Assembly: GCF_003865345.1 (NCBI RefSeq)
Contig: NZ_RMVE01000001.1
Span: forward strand, 868,001 to 932,000
Source: Nonlabens xiamenensis
GTDB lineage: Bacteria; Bacteroidota; Bacteroidia; Flavobacteriales; Flavobacteriaceae
DNA length: 64,000 nt
Direction of reading: 5' to 3'
Positions within the stretch are counted from its first letter, which is position 1, and every line of letters starts with the position of its first letter. Positions 32,774 through 48,882 of the stretch are shown piece by piece. The translations under genes and the position numbers were made by a program. The notes below the pieces were generated by a model, which did not search any database, was not told the DNA's origin, and saw nothing but the letters and a program-made list of their open reading frames with translations.

Positions 32774-32857
32774 ATGAGATTACTAAACCTAAGTCTTTGC
32801 TTTTGGGCAACAGTAGTATTGATTTTGAACCGTTTCAAGGGAATTGTTGCTTTTTAG
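32774..32857 (+). CDS. Putative branched-chain amino acid leader peptide (ilv attenuator)
   Basis: A 27-codon ORF ending with TAG 71 bp before the ilvD ATG. Eleven of 27 residues are Leu, Ile or Val (six L, three V, two I), including the run VVLIL at codons 14-18 and an early LLNLSL. This is the composition of ribosome-sensing leader peptides of ilv operons. It is not conserved-domain evidence, only composition and position. The ORF overlaps a hairpin with a T-run (32807-32861), listed separately. Confidence 0.7.
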   Translation: MRLLNLSLCFWATVVLILNRFKGIVAF

Positions 32858-32861: not shown

Positions 32862-32927
32862 GGTAAAGAATAGGCGATACAACCAGGTCATGAGGAAAAT
32901 ACGGACCTGCCAACAACCTGATAATTG

Positions 32928-39729: not shown

Positions 39730-39767
39730 TAACCATTATAATAAGCTTAAAATCTGCAGTTATGTTT

Positions 39768-39796
39768 TTGTCAATTAAAAAAATAGAGTACTTTTA
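39768..39796 (+). promoter_or_regulatory. Candidate Bacteroidota promoter for the arg operon
   Basis: TTG at 39768-39770 and TACTTTTA at 39789-39796 are 18 bp apart, close to the -33 TTG / -7 TAnnTTTG consensus of Bacteroidota. Start of transcription would fall near 39803, so the leader peptide may begin at the second ATG (39819) instead of 39801. Confidence 0.5.
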
Positions 39797-39800
39797 CTTT

Positions 39801-39872
39801 ATGAGTCAGTCACTGAATATGGAAAAAATACCGATGCCCTTGCGCCGCAGGGAGCGCCGTCGCCGTTTTTAA
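39801..39872 (+). CDS. Putative arginine leader peptide (arg attenuator)
   Basis: A 23-codon ORF ending in RRRERRRRF then TAA, with seven Arg in the eight codons 15-22, placed directly upstream of the arginine operon. An internal ATG at 39819 gives a 17-residue version, MEKIPMPLRRRERRRRF. Such Arg runs are expected only by selection for charging-state sensing. Downstream, 39966-40049, are alternative RNA hairpins. No homologue search was possible. Confidence 0.8.
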   Translation: MSQSLNMEKIPMPLRRRERRRRF

Positions 39873-39965
39873 TCAGGCCGTATTTTCTCACTATTCATTC
39901 TTATCACATTGACTTTTTCTTCTCACATATTTTTAAGCAGTATCAAACCCTTTAATTCCAAGGGG

Positions 39966-40049
39966 GCACCTTTGTTGCGCTGTGTGTTGAATCGCCGCCC
40001 GTAAGGGTGTAGCATTTATCGGGAACCAGGTGCGTCCGGTTCTTCTTTT
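39966..40049 (+). terminator. Arg attenuator: terminator hairpin with competing upstream pairing
   Basis: Terminator: GAACC (40023-40027) plus GG (40029-40030) pair with CC (40036-40037) plus GGTTC (40038-40042), one bulged A, followed by TTCTTTT. The A bulge and neighbours AGGTGC (40028-40033) can instead pair with GCACCT (39966-39971), which would break the terminator. This is the geometry of an antiterminator. About 37 nt separate it from the first gene. Confidence 0.55.
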
Positions 40050-40086: not shown

Positions 40087-40713
40087 ATGGACATCGTTAT
40101 TGCCCATAGTCAACATACCATTTATGCGCCTATCATCTGTGATACCATCGCCGAGGCCGCCAAAGTGCGCGGTACCGGGATTGCCAAGCGCACCCCAGAA
40201 TATATCCGCACCAAAATGCAAAACGGGAATGCCGTCATAGCCTTGGATGGCGAAAAGTTTGCCGGCTTCTGCTATATAGAACAATGGGGACACGGAAAAT
40301 TTGTCGCTAATTCTGGATTGATCGTTCATCCGGATTACCGCAACCAGGGACTGGCCAAATTGATCAAGAAACGCGTTTTTCTACTTTCTAGGGAAAAATT
40401 CCCAGAAGCCAAAATTTTCAGCATCACTACCGGATTAGCAGTGATGAAAATGAACAGTGATTTGGGCTATCGTCCGGTAACTTTCTCAGAACTCACCGAT
40501 GACCAACAATTCTGGAACGGTTGTCAAACCTGTAAGAATTACGATATCCTCCAGCGTACTGAACAGCGCATGTGTCTGTGTACCGGGATGATTTATGATC
40601 CAGAAAAACAGGCCTCCAACAACACCAAGCCCATCAAAAAATCGGTTTTCGATCGGCTCAAACAAATTAAACAACACTTGATCCTTAAAAATGATTCCCA
40701 TGAAAAAAAATAA
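40087..40713 (+). CDS. GNAT N-acyltransferase, candidate N-acylglutamate synthase
   Basis: 208 residues from MDIVIAHSQHTIYAPII. GNAT fold with FAGFCYIEQWGHGKFVANSGLIVHPDYRNQGLAKLIKKRVF (acyl-CoA binding QGLAK loop). It is the first gene of the arg operon, where Bacteroidota carry a GNAT enzyme that is the best candidate for the missing N-acetyl- or N-succinylglutamate synthase; no classical argA or argJ is in the window. A Cys-rich tail (GCQTCKNYDILQRTEQRMCLCTG) is unusual. The stop overlaps the argG start by 14 bp. Confidence 0.8.
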   Translation: MDIVIAHSQHTIYAPIICDTIAEAAKVRGTGIAKRTPEYIRTKMQNGNAVIALDGEKFAGFCYIEQWGHGKFVANSGLIVHPDYRNQGLAKLIKKRVFLLSREKFPEAKIFSITTGLAVMKMNSDLGYRPVTFSELTDDQQFWNGCQTCKNYDILQRTEQRMCLCTGMIYDPEKQASNNTKPIKKSVFDRLKQIKQHLILKNDSHEKK

Positions 40714-41893
40714 GAAATTGGTATTGGCCTATAGTGGTGGTTTGGATACCTCTTACTGCGCTGTCTCCCTTTCCAGGGAACACGGCTATGAAGTACATGC
40801 CGTATGCGTGAATACCGGTGGCTTTTCAACCGATGAGATCAAGACGATTGAGTCCAATGCCATAAAAATGGGGGTGGCTTCTTTTACAGCTATCGATGCG
40901 GTAGAGACCTTTTACCAAAAAGTGGTCAAATACCTTATTTATGGAAATGTACTTAAAAACAATACTTATCCTTTATCGGTCAGTGCTGAGCGTATAGTGC
41001 AAGCCGTCGAGATTGTAACCCATGCAAAAAAAATAGATGCTGCCTATATCGCTCACGGTAGCACTGGAGCTGGTAATGATCAGGTGAGATTTGACATGAT
41101 CTTTCAAACTCTGGCTCCAGCCATAGAAATTATCACCCCCATAAGGGATCAATCGCTTTCGCGAAAGCAGGAAATCGACTATCTCAAAGCACAAGGAATC
41201 GATCTGTCCTGGGAAAAAGCCCAGTATTCCATCAATAAGGGATTATGGGGAACCAGCGTGGGTGGATCCGAAACCCTGACTTCCAGACATCCATTACCGG
41301 AGGAAGCCTATCCCTCGCAGTTGAATCAAACCCAACCCAAAGAGCTCCAACTTTCTTTCCAACATGGCGAACTTGCCGCTGTCAATGGACAGACCGGAAC
41401 TGCGGTTGCGCTTATTCAAATGGTACAGAACGAGGCAAGCGCTTATGCCATCGGCAGGGATATCCATGTGGGGGACACCATTGTTGGACTCAAAGGCCGG
41501 GTTGGTTTTGAAGCGGCAGCCGCCTTGGTGATTATTAAAGCACATCACTTACTGGAAAAACATGTGCTCAGCAAATGGCAGTTGCAGCATAAAGATTATC
41601 TGGCCAATTTCTACGGAATGCACCTTCATGAAGGTCAGTATCTGGATCCGGTGATGAGGGATATGGAAGCTTTTTTACAAAGCAGTCAGCGGCAGGTAAG
41701 TGGGGAAGTATTTGTACGTTTAAAACCATATCACTTTAGCCTGGAAGGTGTGGAAAGCAACCAAGATTTGATGAATGCAGAATTTGGTACTTATGGCGAA
41801 GAAAACACGGCATGGAATGCTCAGGAAGCCAGAGGTTTTATCAAGATTCTGGGGAATAGCAATAAAGTATATCACCAAATTAATGCCTCATGA
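40700..41893 (+). CDS. argG: Argininosuccinate synthase
   Basis: 397 residues from MKKNKKLVLAYSGG. It joins citrulline and aspartate with ATP. The P-loop-like SGGLDTS and GSTGAGNDQVRFD are visible, as is the family's Bacteroidota form. Its start lies within the end of the GNAT gene. A near-perfect dispersed palindrome (41154-41168) is inside the gene, read as SLSRK. Confidence 0.95.
   Translation: MKKNKKLVLAYSGGLDTSYCAVSLSREHGYEVHAVCVNTGGFSTDEIKTIESNAIKMGVASFTAIDAVETFYQKVVKYLIYGNVLKNNTYPLSVSAERIVQAVEIVTHAKKIDAAYIAHGSTGAGNDQVRFDMIFQTLAPAIEIITPIRDQSLSRKQEIDYLKAQGIDLSWEKAQYSINKGLWGTSVGGSETLTSRHPLPEEAYPSQLNQTQPKELQLSFQHGELAAVNGQTGTAVALIQMVQNEASAYAIGRDIHVGDTIVGLKGRVGFEAAAALVIIKAHHLLEKHVLSKWQLQHKDYLANFYGMHLHEGQYLDPVMRDMEAFLQSSQRQVSGEVFVRLKPYHFSLEGVESNQDLMNAEFGTYGEENTAWNAQEARGFIKILGNSNKVYHQINAS
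41154..41168. repeat. Dispersed palindrome, imperfect copy (last base changed), in argG
   Basis: CGCTTTCGCGAAAGC followed by A instead of G; 15 of 16 match. Confidence 0.75.
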
Positions 41894-42885
41894 TAAAAGT
41901 AGGAATTATAGGAGGAGCGGGATATACCGCTGGCGAACTCATCCGGTTGTTGCTGAATCATCCGCAGGTTGAGCTTGATTTCGTTTTTTCTACCTCCAAT
42001 GCGGGTAACCCCATTCATCATATTCATCAAGATCTTTTGGGATCGATGGATCAAGACTTTACGGATCAAATCAATGCTGAGGTTGAGGTATTGTTTCTTT
42101 GCCTAGGCCATGGAAACTCTAAAGAGTTCCTGACTACCCATGAGTTTTCGTCAACTACCCGGATCATTGATTTGAGCAACGATTTTCGCCTTGAGCGTGA
42201 TGCAAACCCGCTATTAAAAGGGAAAAGTCATCCCAGCCCATTTGTTTATGGGCTAAGTGAATGGCAACGAGAAAAGGTGCAGAAGGCTCAATATATTGCC
42301 AATCCAGGTTGTTTTGCCACGGCCATCCAATTGGCTTTACTTCCCCTGGCATCCTCTGGATATTTAACCAGAGACGTCCATATCAACGCGGTGACAGGTG
42401 CAACTGGTGCAGGAACCAGTCTTTCTCCTACTACGCATTTTACCTGGCGGGACAATAATTTTTCCCATTATAAGGCTTTCCAGCACCAGCATCTGGACGA
42501 GATCCAAGAGAGCCTGTCTGCTCAACAATCTGCAGCTATAGGCTCCTTGATGTTTTTGCCCCATAGAGGGAACTTCAGCAGGGGGATTTTTGCTACTTCA
42601 TATACAGAAGTTGAGGCCAGTCTAGAAGAGATCAAGCAAATTTATGCTGATTGTTACAAAGATGCTGCCTTTGTACACTGCGCTGCATCACCTTTGCACC
42701 TCAAACAAGTAGTGAACACCAATAAGTGTTTTCTTCACCTTGAAAAACATGGGAAATACGTATTGATCACCAGTATCATTGATAATTTGCTGAAGGGGGC
42801 CTCAGGACAAGCCATTCAGAATATGAATTTGATGTTGGGTTTCCCAGAAGAACAGGGACTCCAATTAAAAGCCAACTTTTTTTAA
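41890..42885 (+). CDS. argC: N-acetyl/succinyl-gamma-glutamyl-phosphate reductase
   Basis: 331 residues. It reduces the acylglutamyl phosphate to its semialdehyde with NADPH. Rossmann start VGIIGGAGYTAGELIRLL; catalytic Cys in NPGCFATAIQLALLPL. Overlaps argG by 4 bp (ATGA). Confidence 0.95.
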   Translation: MIKVGIIGGAGYTAGELIRLLLNHPQVELDFVFSTSNAGNPIHHIHQDLLGSMDQDFTDQINAEVEVLFLCLGHGNSKEFLTTHEFSSTTRIIDLSNDFRLERDANPLLKGKSHPSPFVYGLSEWQREKVQKAQYIANPGCFATAIQLALLPLASSGYLTRDVHINAVTGATGAGTSLSPTTHFTWRDNNFSHYKAFQHQHLDEIQESLSAQQSAAIGSLMFLPHRGNFSRGIFATSYTEVEASLEEIKQIYADCYKDAAFVHCAASPLHLKQVVNTNKCFLHLEKHGKYVLITSIIDNLLKGASGQAIQNMNLMLGFPEEQGLQLKANFF

Positions 42886-42894
42886 AACTACAGC

Positions 42895-43695
42895 ATGAAA
42901 ATAGCGATTATAGGAACCGGAAACTTGGGCAGGTCAATCGCCAAAGGCTTGATTGATACGAATGCCATCACCAGCTTGTATCTCACTAAAAGAAATACAG
43001 CCGATTTGCAGGAATTTGCCGATTTTAAAGGTGTTCATATCACATCAGACAATGAAAAGGCCATTTCTAACAGCGATATCATTATTTATGCTGTGCAGCC
43101 CGCACACCTTAAAGATATCTTAGAACAATCTGTTCATTTACTCCACGATAATCACGTATTCATCTCTACAGTTACTGGGTTTACGCTGCAGGGACTGGAA
43201 GAGGCACTTGGGGCAGATCGATATATTATCCGCGCGATGCCCAATACAGCGATTGCCGTCGGTAAATCCATGACCTGTTTGTGTGGTAGCGAACAAGGAA
43301 AACAACGCATCAAAGTGGCTCAGGCGATTTTTAACAGACTGGGAGCAACCCTTGTCATCCCTGAAGAGCAAATGCAGGCAGCCACTGTGGTATGTGCCAG
43401 TGGCGTTGCTTTTTGGATGCGTTTGATCAGGGCCAGCACCCAAGCGGCTATCCAATTGGGTTTTGATGCCAAAGAAGCGCAAATGTTAGCCATGCATACG
43501 GCTGAAGGGGCCGCCAACCTGCTTATCCATACAGGGAACCATCCTGAAGAAGAAATCGACAAGGTGACTACACCCAAAGGATGTACAATTGAAGGCTTGA
43601 ACGAAATGGAACACAAAGGCCTGAGCTCTTCGCTTATTCAGGGAATGATCGCGTCCTTTCAAAAAATTAATAATATCAAGGAGAGACAGATATGA
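42895..43695 (+). CDS. proC: Pyrroline-5-carboxylate reductase
   Basis: 266 residues. IAIIGTGNLGRSIAKGL at the N-terminus and the C-terminal VTTPKGCTIEGLNEME with a conserved substrate loop. It makes proline from pyrroline-5-carboxylate. It sits inside the arg operon 9 bp after argC and overlaps argD by 4 bp, so it is coregulated with arginine genes. A role in the arginine route itself cannot be excluded but is not indicated. Confidence 0.93.
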   Translation: MKIAIIGTGNLGRSIAKGLIDTNAITSLYLTKRNTADLQEFADFKGVHITSDNEKAISNSDIIIYAVQPAHLKDILEQSVHLLHDNHVFISTVTGFTLQGLEEALGADRYIIRAMPNTAIAVGKSMTCLCGSEQGKQRIKVAQAIFNRLGATLVIPEEQMQAATVVCASGVAFWMRLIRASTQAAIQLGFDAKEAQMLAMHTAEGAANLLIHTGNHPEEEIDKVTTPKGCTIEGLNEMEHKGLSSSLIQGMIASFQKINNIKERQI

Positions 43696-44816
43696 GCTTA
43701 TTTGATGTATATCCTTTATTCGATGTAAATCCGGTAAAAGGCCGTGATGTTTATGTTTATGATGAATCGGGTAATGAGTACCTTGATCTCTACGGTGGTC
43801 ACGCGGTGATTTCCATCGGCCATTCCCATCCAGAATTTGTAAAGGCTCTAAAATCCCAATTGGACCAATTGGCTTTTTATAGCAATGCGGTTCAAAATCC
43901 GCTGCAGTCTAAGTATGCCGAGACCCTGGTTAAGGCCTCAGATTGTGCCAACTACCAGTTATTCCTATGTAACTCTGGCGCAGAAGCTAATGAAAACGCG
44001 CTAAAACTCGCTTCCTTTCACACAGGAAAAGCTAAAATTGTTGCTTTTAAAAATGGATTTCACGGACGTACATCAGCCGCTGTAGCAGCTACAGACAATC
44101 AAAAAATTATTGCCCCACTCAATCGGCAGCAACAAGTGGAACTGGTCGATTTAGGGGATCTTGAGGTGGTAGAAATAGCGCTTTCGCGAAAGGATTGCTG
44201 TGCGGTAATCGTGGAATGTATTCAAGGCGTGGGTGGTCTGGACGAGGGTGCAGGAGAATTTTTCAAGGAGTTACAGCGGTTGTGCAAAAAATATCAATGC
44301 CTGCTGATCGCTGATGAAGTGCAGTCGGGCTTTGGACGCAGTGGCGAATTCTTTGCCTTTCAAAAACACGGTCTGGAACCCGATATTATTTCTATGGCCA
44401 AAGGTATGGGTAATGGCTTTCCCGTCGGCGGAATTTTAATCCATCCTTCCATTAAAGCTTCCCATGGGTTGTTGGGAACCACTTTTGGTGGAAATCATTT
44501 GGCTTGTGTCGCTGGATTAAGTGTTCTGAAAGTATTGGAGCAAGAACAATTAATGAAAAATGTCAAGCAGCAGCAGGCGTATGTGCAGCAACAAGTCGAG
44601 CAAATTCCGGCCATTAAGAAGTTAAAGGGACGCGGATTGATGCTGGGTCTGGAGTTTGACTATCCAGTGTCTGATTTGCGTAAAAAGCTACTTTATGAGC
44701 ACCATATCTTTACTGGAAGTGCCAAAAACCCTAACCTCTTGCGTATACTACCTCCATTGACCGTTCAAACACAACACTGGGATCGATTTTTTCAAGCCTT
44801 AAAAGCATCTTTATGA
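43692..44816 (+). CDS. argD: Acylornithine aminotransferase
   Basis: 374 residues, PLP class III. Motifs: YLDLYGGHAVISIGHSHPEF, NSGAEANENALKLA, ADEVQSGFGRSGEFF and the PLP lysine in ISMAKGMGNGFPVGG. It transaminates acylglutamate semialdehyde. Overlaps proC and argF' by 4 bp each. It contains an imperfect dispersed palindrome (44179-44193, read as ALSRK). Confidence 0.94.
   Translation: MSLFDVYPLFDVNPVKGRDVYVYDESGNEYLDLYGGHAVISIGHSHPEFVKALKSQLDQLAFYSNAVQNPLQSKYAETLVKASDCANYQLFLCNSGAEANENALKLASFHTGKAKIVAFKNGFHGRTSAAVAATDNQKIIAPLNRQQQVELVDLGDLEVVEIALSRKDCCAVIVECIQGVGGLDEGAGEFFKELQRLCKKYQCLLIADEVQSGFGRSGEFFAFQKHGLEPDIISMAKGMGNGFPVGGILIHPSIKASHGLLGTTFGGNHLACVAGLSVLKVLEQEQLMKNVKQQQAYVQQQVEQIPAIKKLKGRGLMLGLEFDYPVSDLRKKLLYEHHIFTGSAKNPNLLRILPPLTVQTQHWDRFFQALKASL
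44179..44193. repeat. Dispersed palindrome, imperfect copy in argD
   Basis: CGCTTTCGCGAAAGG, same frame as the argG copy (ALSRK). Confidence 0.65.
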
Positions 44817-45748
44817 AGCATTACACCTCTATACAGGATATCAGCGAGTTGGACAGTTTGGTTAAAGATGCCTTTTCGCTCAAGCGAAATCCACGTGCTT
44901 TTGAAACTCTAGGTAAAGGAAAAACGCTGGTGATGCTTTTTTTTAATGCCAGCTTACGCACCAGGCTGAGTACGGAAAATGCGGCCAAGAATCTGGGAAT
45001 GGATGTACAAATACTCAACGTTACGGACTCTTGGAAACTCGAGTTTGCCGATGGCAGTATAATGAATGCCGATACTTCTGAACATGTAAGGGAAGCCGCA
45101 CAAGTAATTGCGCAATACGCAGACGTGCTAGCTGTTCGCGCTTTCCCCAGCCTGACCGATAAACAGGCCGACCAACAGGAAATGGTGTTGAAGTCATTTA
45201 TCAAATATGCTGGCATCCCTGTGGTCAATATGGAAAGCGCAACCCAGCACCCGCTGCAAGCACTGGCAGACTTGATCACGATTGAAGAAAACAAAACCAT
45301 AAAGCAACCGAAGGTGGTATTGTCTTGGGCGCCACACCCCAAAGCCTTACCCCATGCGGTGGCCAATTCTTTTATCCAAATCATGCAGCGTGCTGAGGTA
45401 GATCTAAGTATTACCCATCCTGAAGGCTACGGACTCGACCCTAACATTGTGCAAGGTACTCCGGTGATCTACGATCAGGAAAAAGCGCTGGAGCAAGCAG
45501 ATTTTGTCTACGTAAAAAACTGGAGTTCGTTTGAGAATTACGGCAAGGTGTTATCGCAGGATCCATCATGGATGATGACGACCGACAAACTAAATCATGC
45601 CCGGTTCATGCATTGTTTGCCAGTACGCCGAAATGTAGTCGTGGAAGATGCCGTATTGGATAGTGATCAGTCCCTGGTGATTCAACAGGCGGGAAACAGG
45701 ACCTTTTCAGCCCAAGTCGTGTTGAAAAATATATTGGAAAAGCTATGA
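44813..45748 (+). CDS. argF': N-succinylornithine carbamoyltransferase (ArgF'-type)
   Basis: 311 residues. Carbamoyl-phosphate site FFNASLRTRLSTENAAKNLGMDV; substrate region ADTSEHVREAAQVIAQYADVLAVRAF; EHCLPVR-equivalent FMHCLPVRRN; ATQHPLQALADLITI. It belongs to the acetyl/succinyl-ornithine class, not plain OTC. Ser89 sits where Xanthomonas AOTCase has Glu92 and Bacteroides SOTCase has Pro90 (by-eye alignment), favouring succinylornithine. It overlaps argD and argB by 4 bp each. The variant palindrome at 44874-44889 reads FSLKRN. Confidence 0.92.
   Translation: MKHYTSIQDISELDSLVKDAFSLKRNPRAFETLGKGKTLVMLFFNASLRTRLSTENAAKNLGMDVQILNVTDSWKLEFADGSIMNADTSEHVREAAQVIAQYADVLAVRAFPSLTDKQADQQEMVLKSFIKYAGIPVVNMESATQHPLQALADLITIEENKTIKQPKVVLSWAPHPKALPHAVANSFIQIMQRAEVDLSITHPEGYGLDPNIVQGTPVIYDQEKALEQADFVYVKNWSSFENYGKVLSQDPSWMMTTDKLNHARFMHCLPVRRNVVVEDAVLDSDQSLVIQQAGNRTFSAQVVLKNILEKL
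44874..44889. repeat. Variant palindrome TTTCGCT-CA-AGCGAAA (intragenic)
   Basis: 7-bp arms around CA in argF', read as FSLKRN, the same reading as the copy in the histidine kinase (FSLTRN). Confidence 0.45.
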
Positions 45749-46527
45749 AGGCATTGACGATTGTGAAAATTGGCGGCCACCTGATCGATGATGACCAAGC
45801 CTTAAAAAAGGTACTGGTTGATTTTGCTGGGATCCAGGGTCCTAAAATCCTGATCCACGGCGGTGGACGTGCAGCTACTGCTTTGGCCAAAAAGCTGGAT
45901 TTGGAGGTGCAGATGTTGGAAGGAAGGCGTATCACCGACACCGATATGCTAGAAGTAGCTGTAATGGTATACGCTGGTAAAACAAATAAATTCATGGTGG
46001 CTAAATTGCAAGCTTTTGGATGTATGGCCATTGGACTCACTGGGGCGGATGCCGACTTGGTCAGGTCCAAAAAAAGATCAGTGGATCCTGTGGATTACGG
46101 TTGGGTGGGTGATGTAAAGAAAGTCAATGCAGGTTTTTTAAGCCAATGGCTGGAAGGAGCGCAGCCAGTTGTTCCTGTATTTTGTGCCATTACCCATGAT
46201 GGAAACGGACAATTACTCAACACCAATGCAGATACCATGGCGGCTGAAATCGCGGTGGCGATGACAGAATTTTATACAACCAGCCTGATCTATTGCTTCG
46301 AAAAACCAGGAGTCTTACTGGATATATCAGATGAGGATAGTCTGGTGACCCAATTGAATCAAAAAGACTATGACCGGTTAAAAAAGCAAGGTGTCATCGC
46401 TGATGGTATGTTGCCAAAATTGAAAAATTGCTTTTATGCCTTGAATCATGGCGTAGAAAAGATCAGCCTGGGTCATCCGGAAATCCTAAGTGACCCACAT
46501 TATAAATGTACAAGAATAAGCTTATGA
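45745..46527 (+). CDS. argB: N-acetyl/succinylglutamate kinase
   Basis: 260 residues. Amino-acid-kinase fold: VKIGGHLIDD, IHGGGRAATALAKKL and the Asp/Lys-bearing LNTNADTMAAEIAVAM region. It phosphorylates the acylated glutamate. It overlaps argF' and argE by 4 bp each, so the run argC-argE is tightly coupled. Compared with the longer arginine-inhibited kinases it lacks the N-terminal extension, so feedback inhibition by arginine is not predicted. Confidence 0.94.
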   Translation: MKALTIVKIGGHLIDDDQALKKVLVDFAGIQGPKILIHGGGRAATALAKKLDLEVQMLEGRRITDTDMLEVAVMVYAGKTNKFMVAKLQAFGCMAIGLTGADADLVRSKKRSVDPVDYGWVGDVKKVNAGFLSQWLEGAQPVVPVFCAITHDGNGQLLNTNADTMAAEIAVAMTEFYTTSLIYCFEKPGVLLDISDEDSLVTQLNQKDYDRLKKQGVIADGMLPKLKNCFYALNHGVEKISLGHPEILSDPHYKCTRISL

Positions 46528-47591
46528 ATCTGCAAAACCAACTTACCGTCAGCGCCATAGAATTGCTTAAAAACCTGATTAGTACCCCATCCTTTTCTGG
46601 AGAAGAGCAGAATACAGCCCTATTCATTGAGCGGTGGCTGGCTGACCAGGACATCAAATACCAACGTAGGCAGAACAATATTTGGTCGGTGAACAAAGAT
46701 TTTGATGCAACCAAACCTACGGTGCTGCTCAATTCACATCACGATACGGTCCAACCCAACAAAGCCTACACCAAGGATCCATTTGATCCGGTGTTGGTAG
46801 ATGGCAAATTGTATGGCTTGGGCAGTAATGATGCCGGCGGTTGTTTGGTATCCTTGCTGGCCAGCTTTGCTTATTTCTATCATCAAGATGATTTGGCTTA
46901 TAATCTCGTGATCGTCGCCAGTGCAGAAGAAGAAAGCAGCGGTCCTAACGGCTTGAACAGTATGTTGGAGGTCATACCGCCCATCGATGTAGCTATTGTG
47001 GGTGAGCCCACTCAAATGCAGTTGGCTGTAGCCGAAAAGGGGCTCGTGGTCTTTGATGTTTATGTAGAAGGAACTCCTGGACATGCGGCACATCCGAATG
47101 ACAATCATGCCATTTATAATTCCATTGCATTACAGGAATGGTTGCGGGATTATAAATTTGAACGGATCTCAGATCAATTGGGAGAGGTGAAGATGACCTT
47201 GACCCAAATCAATGCTGGTGTACAACATAATGCGATACCTTCTGAGGTGCACCTGGTGGTAGATGTACGAGTGAATGATTTATACAGCAATCAGGAGATC
47301 GCTGAATTGCTGAAAACAGAAGCGCCCTGTGATCGAATCAAAGCCAGAAGCTTAAGACTCAACTCAAGTTCGATCCCGGTTTCCCACGAACTCGTTCAAG
47401 CCGGATTGGCATTGGGTAGGGAAACTTATGGCTCACCAACCCTTTCTGATCAGGCCTGTTTGACCGTACCTTCCTTGAAATTAGGTCCCGGCGATAGTAC
47501 CAGGTCACACAGCGCGGACGAATTCATCTATCTTTCAGAAATTGAAGAGGGAATAGATCTTTATATCAAAATATTACAGCAAATCTTATAA
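46524..47591 (+). CDS. argE: Acylornithine/acylcitrulline deacylase (M20 family)
   Basis: 355 residues from MNLQNQL (46524). Metal ligands and catalytic residues: NSHHDTVQP, LGSNDAGGC, ASAEEESSGPNGL and the late His in THSADEF-like TRSHSADEF. In this operon it most likely removes the succinyl or acetyl group after carbamoylation. Overlaps argB by 4 bp; 10 bp gap to argH. Confidence 0.9.
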   Translation: MNLQNQLTVSAIELLKNLISTPSFSGEEQNTALFIERWLADQDIKYQRRQNNIWSVNKDFDATKPTVLLNSHHDTVQPNKAYTKDPFDPVLVDGKLYGLGSNDAGGCLVSLLASFAYFYHQDDLAYNLVIVASAEEESSGPNGLNSMLEVIPPIDVAIVGEPTQMQLAVAEKGLVVFDVYVEGTPGHAAHPNDNHAIYNSIALQEWLRDYKFERISDQLGEVKMTLTQINAGVQHNAIPSEVHLVVDVRVNDLYSNQEIAELLKTEAPCDRIKARSLRLNSSSIPVSHELVQAGLALGRETYGSPTLSDQACLTVPSLKLGPGDSTRSHSADEFIYLSEIEEGIDLYIKILQQIL

Positions 47592-47601
47592 TATACCTTT
47601 T

Positions 47602-48882
47602 ATGAAACTTTGGGAAAAGGGCTTGGCCATCGATAAAAAAATGGAGCAATTTACCGTGGGAAACGACCGCCAAACAGATCTATACATCGCAACTTATGAT
47701 GTGCAGGCATCTCGAGCGCATGCCCGAATGCTTAAAAAGGTAGGGATGCTATCAGAAGCCGAATTAAACCAACTAGAGTTAGGGTTGGACCGGATCGATC
47801 AGGAGTTGGAGCAAGGAACTTTTGTCATCAATGATGAATTTGAGGATATTCATTCCAAAATTGAATACGAACTCACCGAACAATTGGGTGAAGTAGGCAA
47901 AAAAATCCACACGGCCAGATCCCGAAATGACCAGGTATTGGTGGCTTTGCAATTGTATTATAAAGATAACCTTAGTCAAATCAGAGGCCAGGTTCATCAG
48001 TTGTTTGAGACCTTATTGTCGCTAGCCGAAACCTACAAAGACAAGCTTCTTCCTGGATATACACATTTGCAGGTAGCCATGCCGTCCTCTTTTGGTTTGT
48101 GGTTTTCTTCTTATGCAGAATTACTGGTTGACGATGTTTATATGCTGGACGCTACTTTGAAAGTGGTGGATCAGAATCCGCTGGGAAGTGCAGCTGGCTA
48201 CGGGAGTTCATTTCCTATTGACCGGGAATTTACCACGGATCAATTAAATTTTGCTGAGCTAAAATACAATGTAGTAGCTGCCCAACTCACCAGGGGAAGA
48301 AATGAGCGCATCATTGCTTCCAGTCTGGGGCAAATTGCGCAAACCTTGTCCAAGGCCGCTATGGATGTGTGCTTATATATGAGCCAGAATTTTGGATTTA
48401 TCAGTTTTCCGGATGCATTGACTACTGGGAGTAGTATAATGCCACATAAAAAAAATCCAGATGTTTTTGAACTGATCAGGGGGAAATGCAACAAGATACA
48501 GGCACTACAAACCGAAATGCTCTTGATCTCCCATAACCTTCCTAGCGGGTACCATAGAGACTTCCAATTATTGAAGGAAAATCTGATACAGACCATAGAA
48601 GATCTTAAGGAGGTCTTGGATATTTTTGATTATGCGATCCGTCAGATTATTATCAAGGATATTGATCTAAACGAGCCCAAATATGAATACTTATTTACCG
48701 TAGACAACATCAACCAGTTGGTCGTGGAAGGTGCCAGTTTTAGAGATGCCTACCAACAGATCGGCCAACAAGTACAGGAGGGCAGTTATGTGCCAGATCG
48801 GTCCAAGCAGCATACCCATTTAGGAAGTATGGGCAACCTGGGTCTGGACCAAATACGCAGTAAGTTTCCTGATCAGGCTTAG
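47602..48882 (+). CDS. argH: Argininosuccinate lyase
   Basis: 426 residues. The fumarase-superfamily signature GSSIMPHKKNPDVFELIRG and IHTARSRNDQVLVALQLYYKD are clear. It splits argininosuccinate to arginine and fumarate. Last gene of the operon. A hairpin GAAGTT/AACTTC with TTTTG follows at 48984-49011. Confidence 0.95.
   Translation: MKLWEKGLAIDKKMEQFTVGNDRQTDLYIATYDVQASRAHARMLKKVGMLSEAELNQLELGLDRIDQELEQGTFVINDEFEDIHSKIEYELTEQLGEVGKKIHTARSRNDQVLVALQLYYKDNLSQIRGQVHQLFETLLSLAETYKDKLLPGYTHLQVAMPSSFGLWFSSYAELLVDDVYMLDATLKVVDQNPLGSAAGYGSSFPIDREFTTDQLNFAELKYNVVAAQLTRGRNERIIASSLGQIAQTLSKAAMDVCLYMSQNFGFISFPDALTTGSSIMPHKKNPDVFELIRGKCNKIQALQTEMLLISHNLPSGYHRDFQLLKENLIQTIEDLKEVLDIFDYAIRQIIIKDIDLNEPKYEYLFTVDNINQLVVEGASFRDAYQQIGQQVQEGSYVPDRSKQHTHLGSMGNLGLDQIRSKFPDQA

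Follow-up and report, generated by a model that had tools for sequence, protein, structure and literature searches.

Organization of the arginine locus and its leader reading frames

The 64-kb window, that is, the whole stretch of DNA analyzed here, contains the genes ilvD-ilvB-ilvN-ilvC-ilvA, then a leader region, and then the operon GNAT-argG-argC-proC-argD-argF'-argB-argE-argH, so that the leader element sits ahead of an operon making the same amino acid, arginine, that is overrepresented in its reading frames. The first gene of the operon codes for a GNAT acetyltransferase whose closest relatives are found in Nonlabens (82 to 84% identical), and its genomic context points to a role as N-acylglutamate synthase; the family to which argF' belongs is that of the N-acetylornithine carbamoyltransferases. 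The features of the region, all of them on the plus strand, are the following.

39767..39796 (+): predicted Bacteroidota-type promoter, with TTTG at 39767-39770 and the -7 box TACTTTTA at 39789-39796
39801..39872 (+): leader ORF1, 23 codons, MSQSLNMEKIPMPLRRRERRRRF-stop, predicted to be leaderless (ATG at 39801, TAA at 39872)
39909..40004 (+): leader ORF2, 31 codons from TTG, ending in ...LLRCVLNRRP-stop, a conserved open frame
39948..39964 (+): HP0, a hairpin within ORF2 (CCCUU/AAGGG), recognized from its mean z-score and from compensatory pair changes
39996..40009 (+): HP1, CGCCC-GUAA-GGGUG, spanning the last Arg codon of ORF2 together with its stop codon
40022..40043 (+): HP2, GGAACC-A-GG-UGCGU-CC-GGUUCU, with a conserved pentaloop, recognized from pairing and covariation
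40087..40713 (+): GNAT acetyltransferase, first gene of the operon (Pfam Acetyltransf_7, Acetyltransf_1)
40691..48882 (+): argG, argC, proC, argD, argF', argB, argE-like M20 peptidase and argH

A first-pass annotation of this DNA had described a 23-codon ORF ending in RRRERRRRF before the arginine operon, and this description is exact: ORF1 carries seven Arg codons in eight and lies about 215 nt from the operon. A scan of the whole window for short ORFs that consist mainly of one residue and precede a long ORF retrieved ORF1 and a single unrelated Leu-rich ORF. In Flavobacterium, the -7 box TAnnTTTG is placed at -12 to -5 relative to the start site (PMC9723704), and from the box of the window (TACTTTTA) the predicted +1 is the ATG of ORF1 (39801). 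In 94 leaders a box could be matched with an ORF, and the most frequent spacing between them, seen in 53, is 5 nt, which places the start codon at +1; for this reason the first leader ORF is predicted, from its sequence, to be leaderless or nearly so.

Relatives of the leader region were gathered first by means of the GNAT protein and later with a covariance model covering HP1-HP2, and 119 distinct leaders with a full 6-bp HP2 stem were chosen from them by script. An Arg-rich ORF, defined as one with at least three Arg among its last eight codons, occupies the place homologous to ORF1 in 80 of the 119, compared to 0.9% in dinucleotide-shuffled sequence. Thus, the search in other Flavobacteriaceae that the first-pass annotation had proposed bears out its Arg-codon leader ahead of the arginine operon, which turns out to be both selected and widespread in the family.

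The upstream regions of the relatives contain two Arg-rich ORFs rather than one. The second of them, ORF2, had been overlooked previously and is better conserved than ORF1, its frame staying open over 25 codons or more in every one of the 119 distinct leaders, while the other two frames are open in 12 and 15 of them. In 66/119 leaders, a start-type codon stands at a distance of 87 nt upstream of the anchoring Arg codon (TTG in 29, GTG in 22, ATG in 15), and since the three codons exchange for one another at one fixed place, the sequences give strong evidence that ORF2 is translated. The frame ends in RRP in 93/119 leaders, and in the Muricauda, Zobellia, and Arenibacter types, ORF2 is the only leader ORF and directly follows the promoter. 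The presence of ORF2 also accounts for the long distance, noticed earlier, between the stop codon of the first leader ORF and a presumed antiterminator arm, even though the arm itself was not supported (see below). Directly 5' of the ORF2 start codon, many relatives share a conserved T-rich tract (TTTTTATTTTTTT), upstream of which no GC-rich hairpin is found.

Three conserved hairpins

Each of the three hairpins is stabler than shuffled sequence across the 119 leaders, different from the flanks before HP0 and after HP2, for which the mean z-scores are +0.3 and +0.06, respectively. The hairpin homologous to HP0, located between -48 and -31 relative to the last Arg codon, has a mean z of -1.77 and shows compensatory pair changes, but in the window itself its predicted probability is only 0.08 in the full fold. 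For HP1, the mean z is -1.83, with a probability of about 0.99 in the window, and for HP2 it is -1.60. According to the z-scores of the same leaders, no conserved structure occurs between HP2 and the first gene. The removal of identical sequences was the sole correction for relatedness applied to the conservation values, and since relatedness is otherwise uncorrected, the structure values show structure and not the number of independent events.

HP2 is an 8-bp hairpin, usually without a U-tract, composed of a 6-bp lower stem, usually a bulge of 1 to 3 nt ending in A, two GG/CC pairs, and the pentaloop UGNGU. In an alignment of 34 sequences, 99.6% of the HP2 cells are paired and changes on both sides occur in four of the eight pairs; over the 119 sequences covariation is plain, with the exchange of the inner G-C for A-U included, and the loop is nearly invariant, so that its shape is well defined. 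Because the larger set was chosen for the full HP2 stem, its stem percentage does not count as independent evidence, which comes instead from the 34-sequence count and the compensatory exchanges. Sequence comparison thus shows ORF1 and ORF2 to be selected as reading frames, and it likewise shows their Arg codons, HP0, HP1, HP2, and the link with the arginine operon. Of these, HP0, HP1, and the conservation of the HP2 loop had, like ORF2, escaped the first-pass annotation.

Some other roles for HP2 were considered and discarded. The GTG in its loop is in frame with the first gene in the window and could have served as an alternative start, but the distances between HP2 and the ATG vary among relatives and the frame is not kept. 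A pairing of the loop with the Arg codons (CGCC/GGUG) was rejected by inspection, since changes at the variable position of the loop are not matched by changes at the base preceding CGCC. HP2 does not look like a DNA operator either: covarying arms with G-U pairs among them and a conserved loop are what one expects of an RNA.

Individual leaders provide further observations. In five of them (L020, L048, L053, L077, and L081) a small palindrome, such as ATTCCTG..CAGGAAT, is inserted between HP2 and the GNAT start, and since these palindromes lengthen the distance by 20 to 35 nt, the spacing between HP2 and the start is not critical. In Nonlabens ulvanivorans JCM 19298 (L016, about position 1900-1920), a deletion disrupts HP1 and shifts the frame of ORF2 through HP2, which may be either a real loss or an assembly error. 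Two genomes, G131 (L155) and G155 (L159), keep ORF1, ORF2, and a hairpin stem while the conserved HP2 loop is altered, and thus represent natural variants for the role of the loop.

Distribution of the element and of ArgR

In the genome to which the window belongs, the HP1-HP2 covariance model gives one convincing match, the arginine leader; the other, weak matches fall in apparent coding sequence or miss most of the structure and look like chance. This also speaks against HP2 as a generic module of amino acid operons. Furthermore, all 15 occurrences of AGGTGNGTCC in two genomes were inspected, and the full 6-bp stem (6 of 6) forms only at the two arginine leaders. In a sample of the phylum comprising 296 genomes, strong matches are confined to Flavobacteriaceae, and the single match outside the family (E = 0.003) looks like chance. 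Within the family, the element was found in 154 of 239 genomes, about two thirds, and the GNAT gene in 163; when the two genome lists were compared by eye, both turned up in 152 genomes, the GNAT gene alone in 11, and the element alone in 2. The window leader and three relatives had no match in Rfam up to E = 1.

In the two genomes with the element alone (L153 in G105 and L154 in G173), the gene downstream of it encodes a GNAT acetyltransferase of a clearly different kind, with argG coming next, and this arrangement suggests that the first gene was replaced under the same leader. The element is missing in some GNAT-bearing genomes, such as those of Flavobacterium. In two Flavobacterium genomes devoid of the HP1-HP2 element (L171 in G337 and L173 in G148), an ORF that is not Arg rich, beginning with MNKISLHITSLSRT, was observed after a good promoter and ahead of the arginine GNAT gene, and it is perhaps another type of leader.

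The arginine repressor ArgR (PF01316) was absent from all 29 Flavobacteriales genomes searched, among them both carriers and noncarriers of the element, whereas the same search found it in nine of 14 control genomes, Bacteroides included. Because of this absence, another mode of arginine control is to be expected in the searched Flavobacteriales. However, since ArgR is also absent from family members devoid of the element, the two traits are not strictly coupled.

Probable mode of action

The first-pass annotation had proposed a competing-hairpin attenuator, which corresponds to the classical ribosome-mediated mechanism: HP2 would be an intrinsic terminator, and its 5' part would pair with an upstream arm upon ribosome stalling. 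For the strain of the window, some data agree with it. The proposed arm, GCACCT (39966-39971), is indeed complementary to AGGTGC (40028-40033), with a modeled pairing probability of 0.98 in the nascent transcript before the 3' arm of HP2 is made; when HP0 is occluded, the GCACCT pairing reaches 0.43 versus 0.56 for HP2. The pairing is thermodynamically possible in this strain only. Moreover, a UCUUCUUUUC-like sequence follows the Nonlabens HP2. Nevertheless, the 6-nt pairing was not confirmed to exceed chance, and GCACCT occurs in just 1/119 distinct leaders, the window itself, so that the check in other Flavobacteriaceae gave a negative answer. In the nascent state, the pairing of the HP2 loop with upstream sequence over the 119 leaders equals that obtained with shuffled upstream sequence (0.482 versus 0.504; above the null in 56/119). 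The HP1-HP2 linker, in which the pairing UUCUA/UAGAA looked promising in Lacinutrix-type leaders, is no competitor for the 5' arm of HP2 either, its energy over the 119 leaders being -1.32 kcal/mol versus -1.70 kcal/mol for shuffled linkers, i.e., weaker.

Likewise, the hairpin that had been placed at 40023-40049 as a T-tailed terminator exists, at 40022-40043, but is not conserved as an intrinsic terminator: over the 119 leaders a mean of 2.8 T occurs among the 8 nt following the HP2 stem, only 24 leaders have a run of at least four T, and the loop is conserved in sequence, something not required of a terminator. With an arm private to one strain, a loop pairing no better than shuffled, a linker that does not compete, and a U-tract generally missing, the competing-hairpin attenuator is not supported for the family, and classical attenuation appears improbable. 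A mutually exclusive antiterminator pairing is not conserved over the 119 leaders; a strain-specific role for the modeled GCACCT pairing is possible, as is a weak intrinsic terminator in Nonlabens.

In our opinion, the more probable explanation, held with moderate confidence, is an arginine-responsive leader in which Arg-tRNA is sensed by way of ribosome progress across Arg codons and the signal is passed on through HP1/HP2, by a means other than a conserved intrinsic terminator. Its sensor part is likely, because of the identity of the codons, the conservation of the frames, and the linkage with the operon. As for the rest, we infer that transcription would start at or beside the ATG of ORF1, which would be translated as a leaderless leader peptide, with ORF2 translated after it and both ORFs ending in runs of Arg codons. 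When charged tRNA-Arg is scarce, ribosomes would slow on the Arg codons, HP0 could refold behind them, and the downstream HP1/HP2 module would stay in a state permitting operon expression. When arginine is plentiful, ribosomes would instead reach the ORF2 stop codon inside HP1 and be released, and HP1/HP2 would lower expression. Candidates for the output are factor-dependent termination, RNA decay, and protein binding at HP2; proceeding by exclusion, since a conserved intrinsic terminator is missing, the stretch before the first gene is unstructured, and the HP2 loop is conserved in sequence, the output most likely depends on a factor (Rho, an RNase, or an RNA-binding protein) that would recognize the HP2 hairpin.

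Some observations do not fit well with this tRNA-sensing leader. In some Polaribacter-type leaders the Arg codons are gone from ORF2 even though HP1/HP2 remain, HP0 is predicted to be weak in the window itself, and ArgR is lacking irrespective of the element. Furthermore, HP2 begins about 17 nt past the usual stop codon of ORF2, out of reach of a ribosome that terminates there, and its conserved, arginine-operon-specific loop, which pure sensing of ribosome position would not need, suggests an additional ligand or protein. It is conceivable, although we advance it only tentatively, that a hybrid system has replaced ArgR in Flavobacteriaceae, in which tandem Arg-codon leader ORFs are combined with an HP2 that recognizes arginine or a dedicated RNA-binding arginine regulator. 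One could go further and regard HP2, together with HP1, as the sensor, binding free arginine or an arginine-dependent RNA-binding protein, with the Arg-codon ORFs as a second layer. The nearly invariant, well-shaped loop, its restriction to the arginine operon, and the absence of ArgR would agree with this possibility, which we nonetheless consider rather unlikely, as HP2 would make a very small metabolite aptamer, the strong conservation of ORF1 and ORF2 would be left unexplained, and G131 and G155 have lost the loop while keeping ORFs and stem.

The frequent RRP-stop ending of ORF2 might recall arrest peptides, similar to the fungal arginine attenuator peptide and TnaC, which would sense free arginine at R-R-P-stop instead of tRNA charging. 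Outside the Arg residues, however, the peptides are poorly conserved, and since several lineages have retained HP1 but not the Pro and stop codons that overlap it (e.g., ...RPLGV-stop), RNA pairing explains the ending and an arrest peptide seems quite improbable. Even less credit can be given to the HP2 loop AGGUGNGUCC as a Shine-Dalgarno-like site for 16S rRNA, e.g., for ribosomes lacking bS21. Its AGGUG and GUCC are complementary, with one bulge, to the 16S 3' end, GGAUCACCU, but in variants such as AGAUGAGUUC a compensatory change preserves the hairpin and the 16S pairing is broken, and no start codon is found at a fixed spacing after the loop. The use of strong Shine-Dalgarno sequences by bS21-lacking ribosomes has been reported in Flavobacterium (PMC9976891).

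The preferred tRNA-sensing leader shares with the his, trp, leu, and ilv attenuators of the E. coli type its RNA hairpins and, before them and the biosynthetic operon, a short leader ORF containing a run of end-product codons, but differs from them in having neither a conserved intrinsic terminator nor a conserved competing antiterminator and in featuring two tandem leader ORFs and a hairpin with a sequence-conserved pentaloop. A precedent for control by an Arg-codon leader lacking a simple terminator is given by orf34 of Salmonella speF (SpeFL), where Arg codons of a leader ORF sense arginine and act through Rho and RNase G (PMC6386406). Both systems have consecutive Arg codons in a leader ORF and an output other than a simple intrinsic attenuator; speF orf34, different from the arginine element, controls an ornithine decarboxylase and has a single ORF and another structure. 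Its control involves Rho, RNase G, and sequestration of the ribosome-binding site (PMC6386406), Rho and an RNase being candidate factors for the arginine element as well. ArgR/AhrC performs the same physiological task as a protein repressor and, as seen above, was detected in the Bacteroides control and not in the 29 Flavobacteriales. In the same family, structured 5' regions of F. psychrophilum have been described, with leader-peptide attenuation inferred for amino acid operons, and the family-conserved elements named in the main text of that study are those of pheA and hisG, not of arginine genes (PMC9723704). Leaders bearing small ORFs are also reported in B. thetaiotaomicron (PMC7366714). 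A search of the open-access literature returned no earlier description of the arginine element.

The element is thus a candidate answer to the question of how arginine synthesis is controlled in Flavobacteriaceae devoid of ArgR, as well as a structured RNA that lacks an Rfam match and occurs in about two thirds of the sampled genomes of the family. With it, leader-peptide control can be put to a clear test in a phylum in which translation by ribosomes does not depend on Shine-Dalgarno pairing. The HP2 loop, conserved and confined to a single operon, hints at a putative binding partner.

A minor observation concerns the other amino acid operon of the window. Upstream of ilvD there is a short ORF rich in Leu, Val, and Ile (MRLLNLSLCFWATVVLILNRFKGIVAF, window 32774-32857), and among the relatives compared, several loci lay in an orientation other than the expected one. 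The ORF is followed, at about 32883-32912, by a hairpin (CAGGUC/GACCUG) without a U-tract, and the two are possibly a branched-chain leader of similar build.
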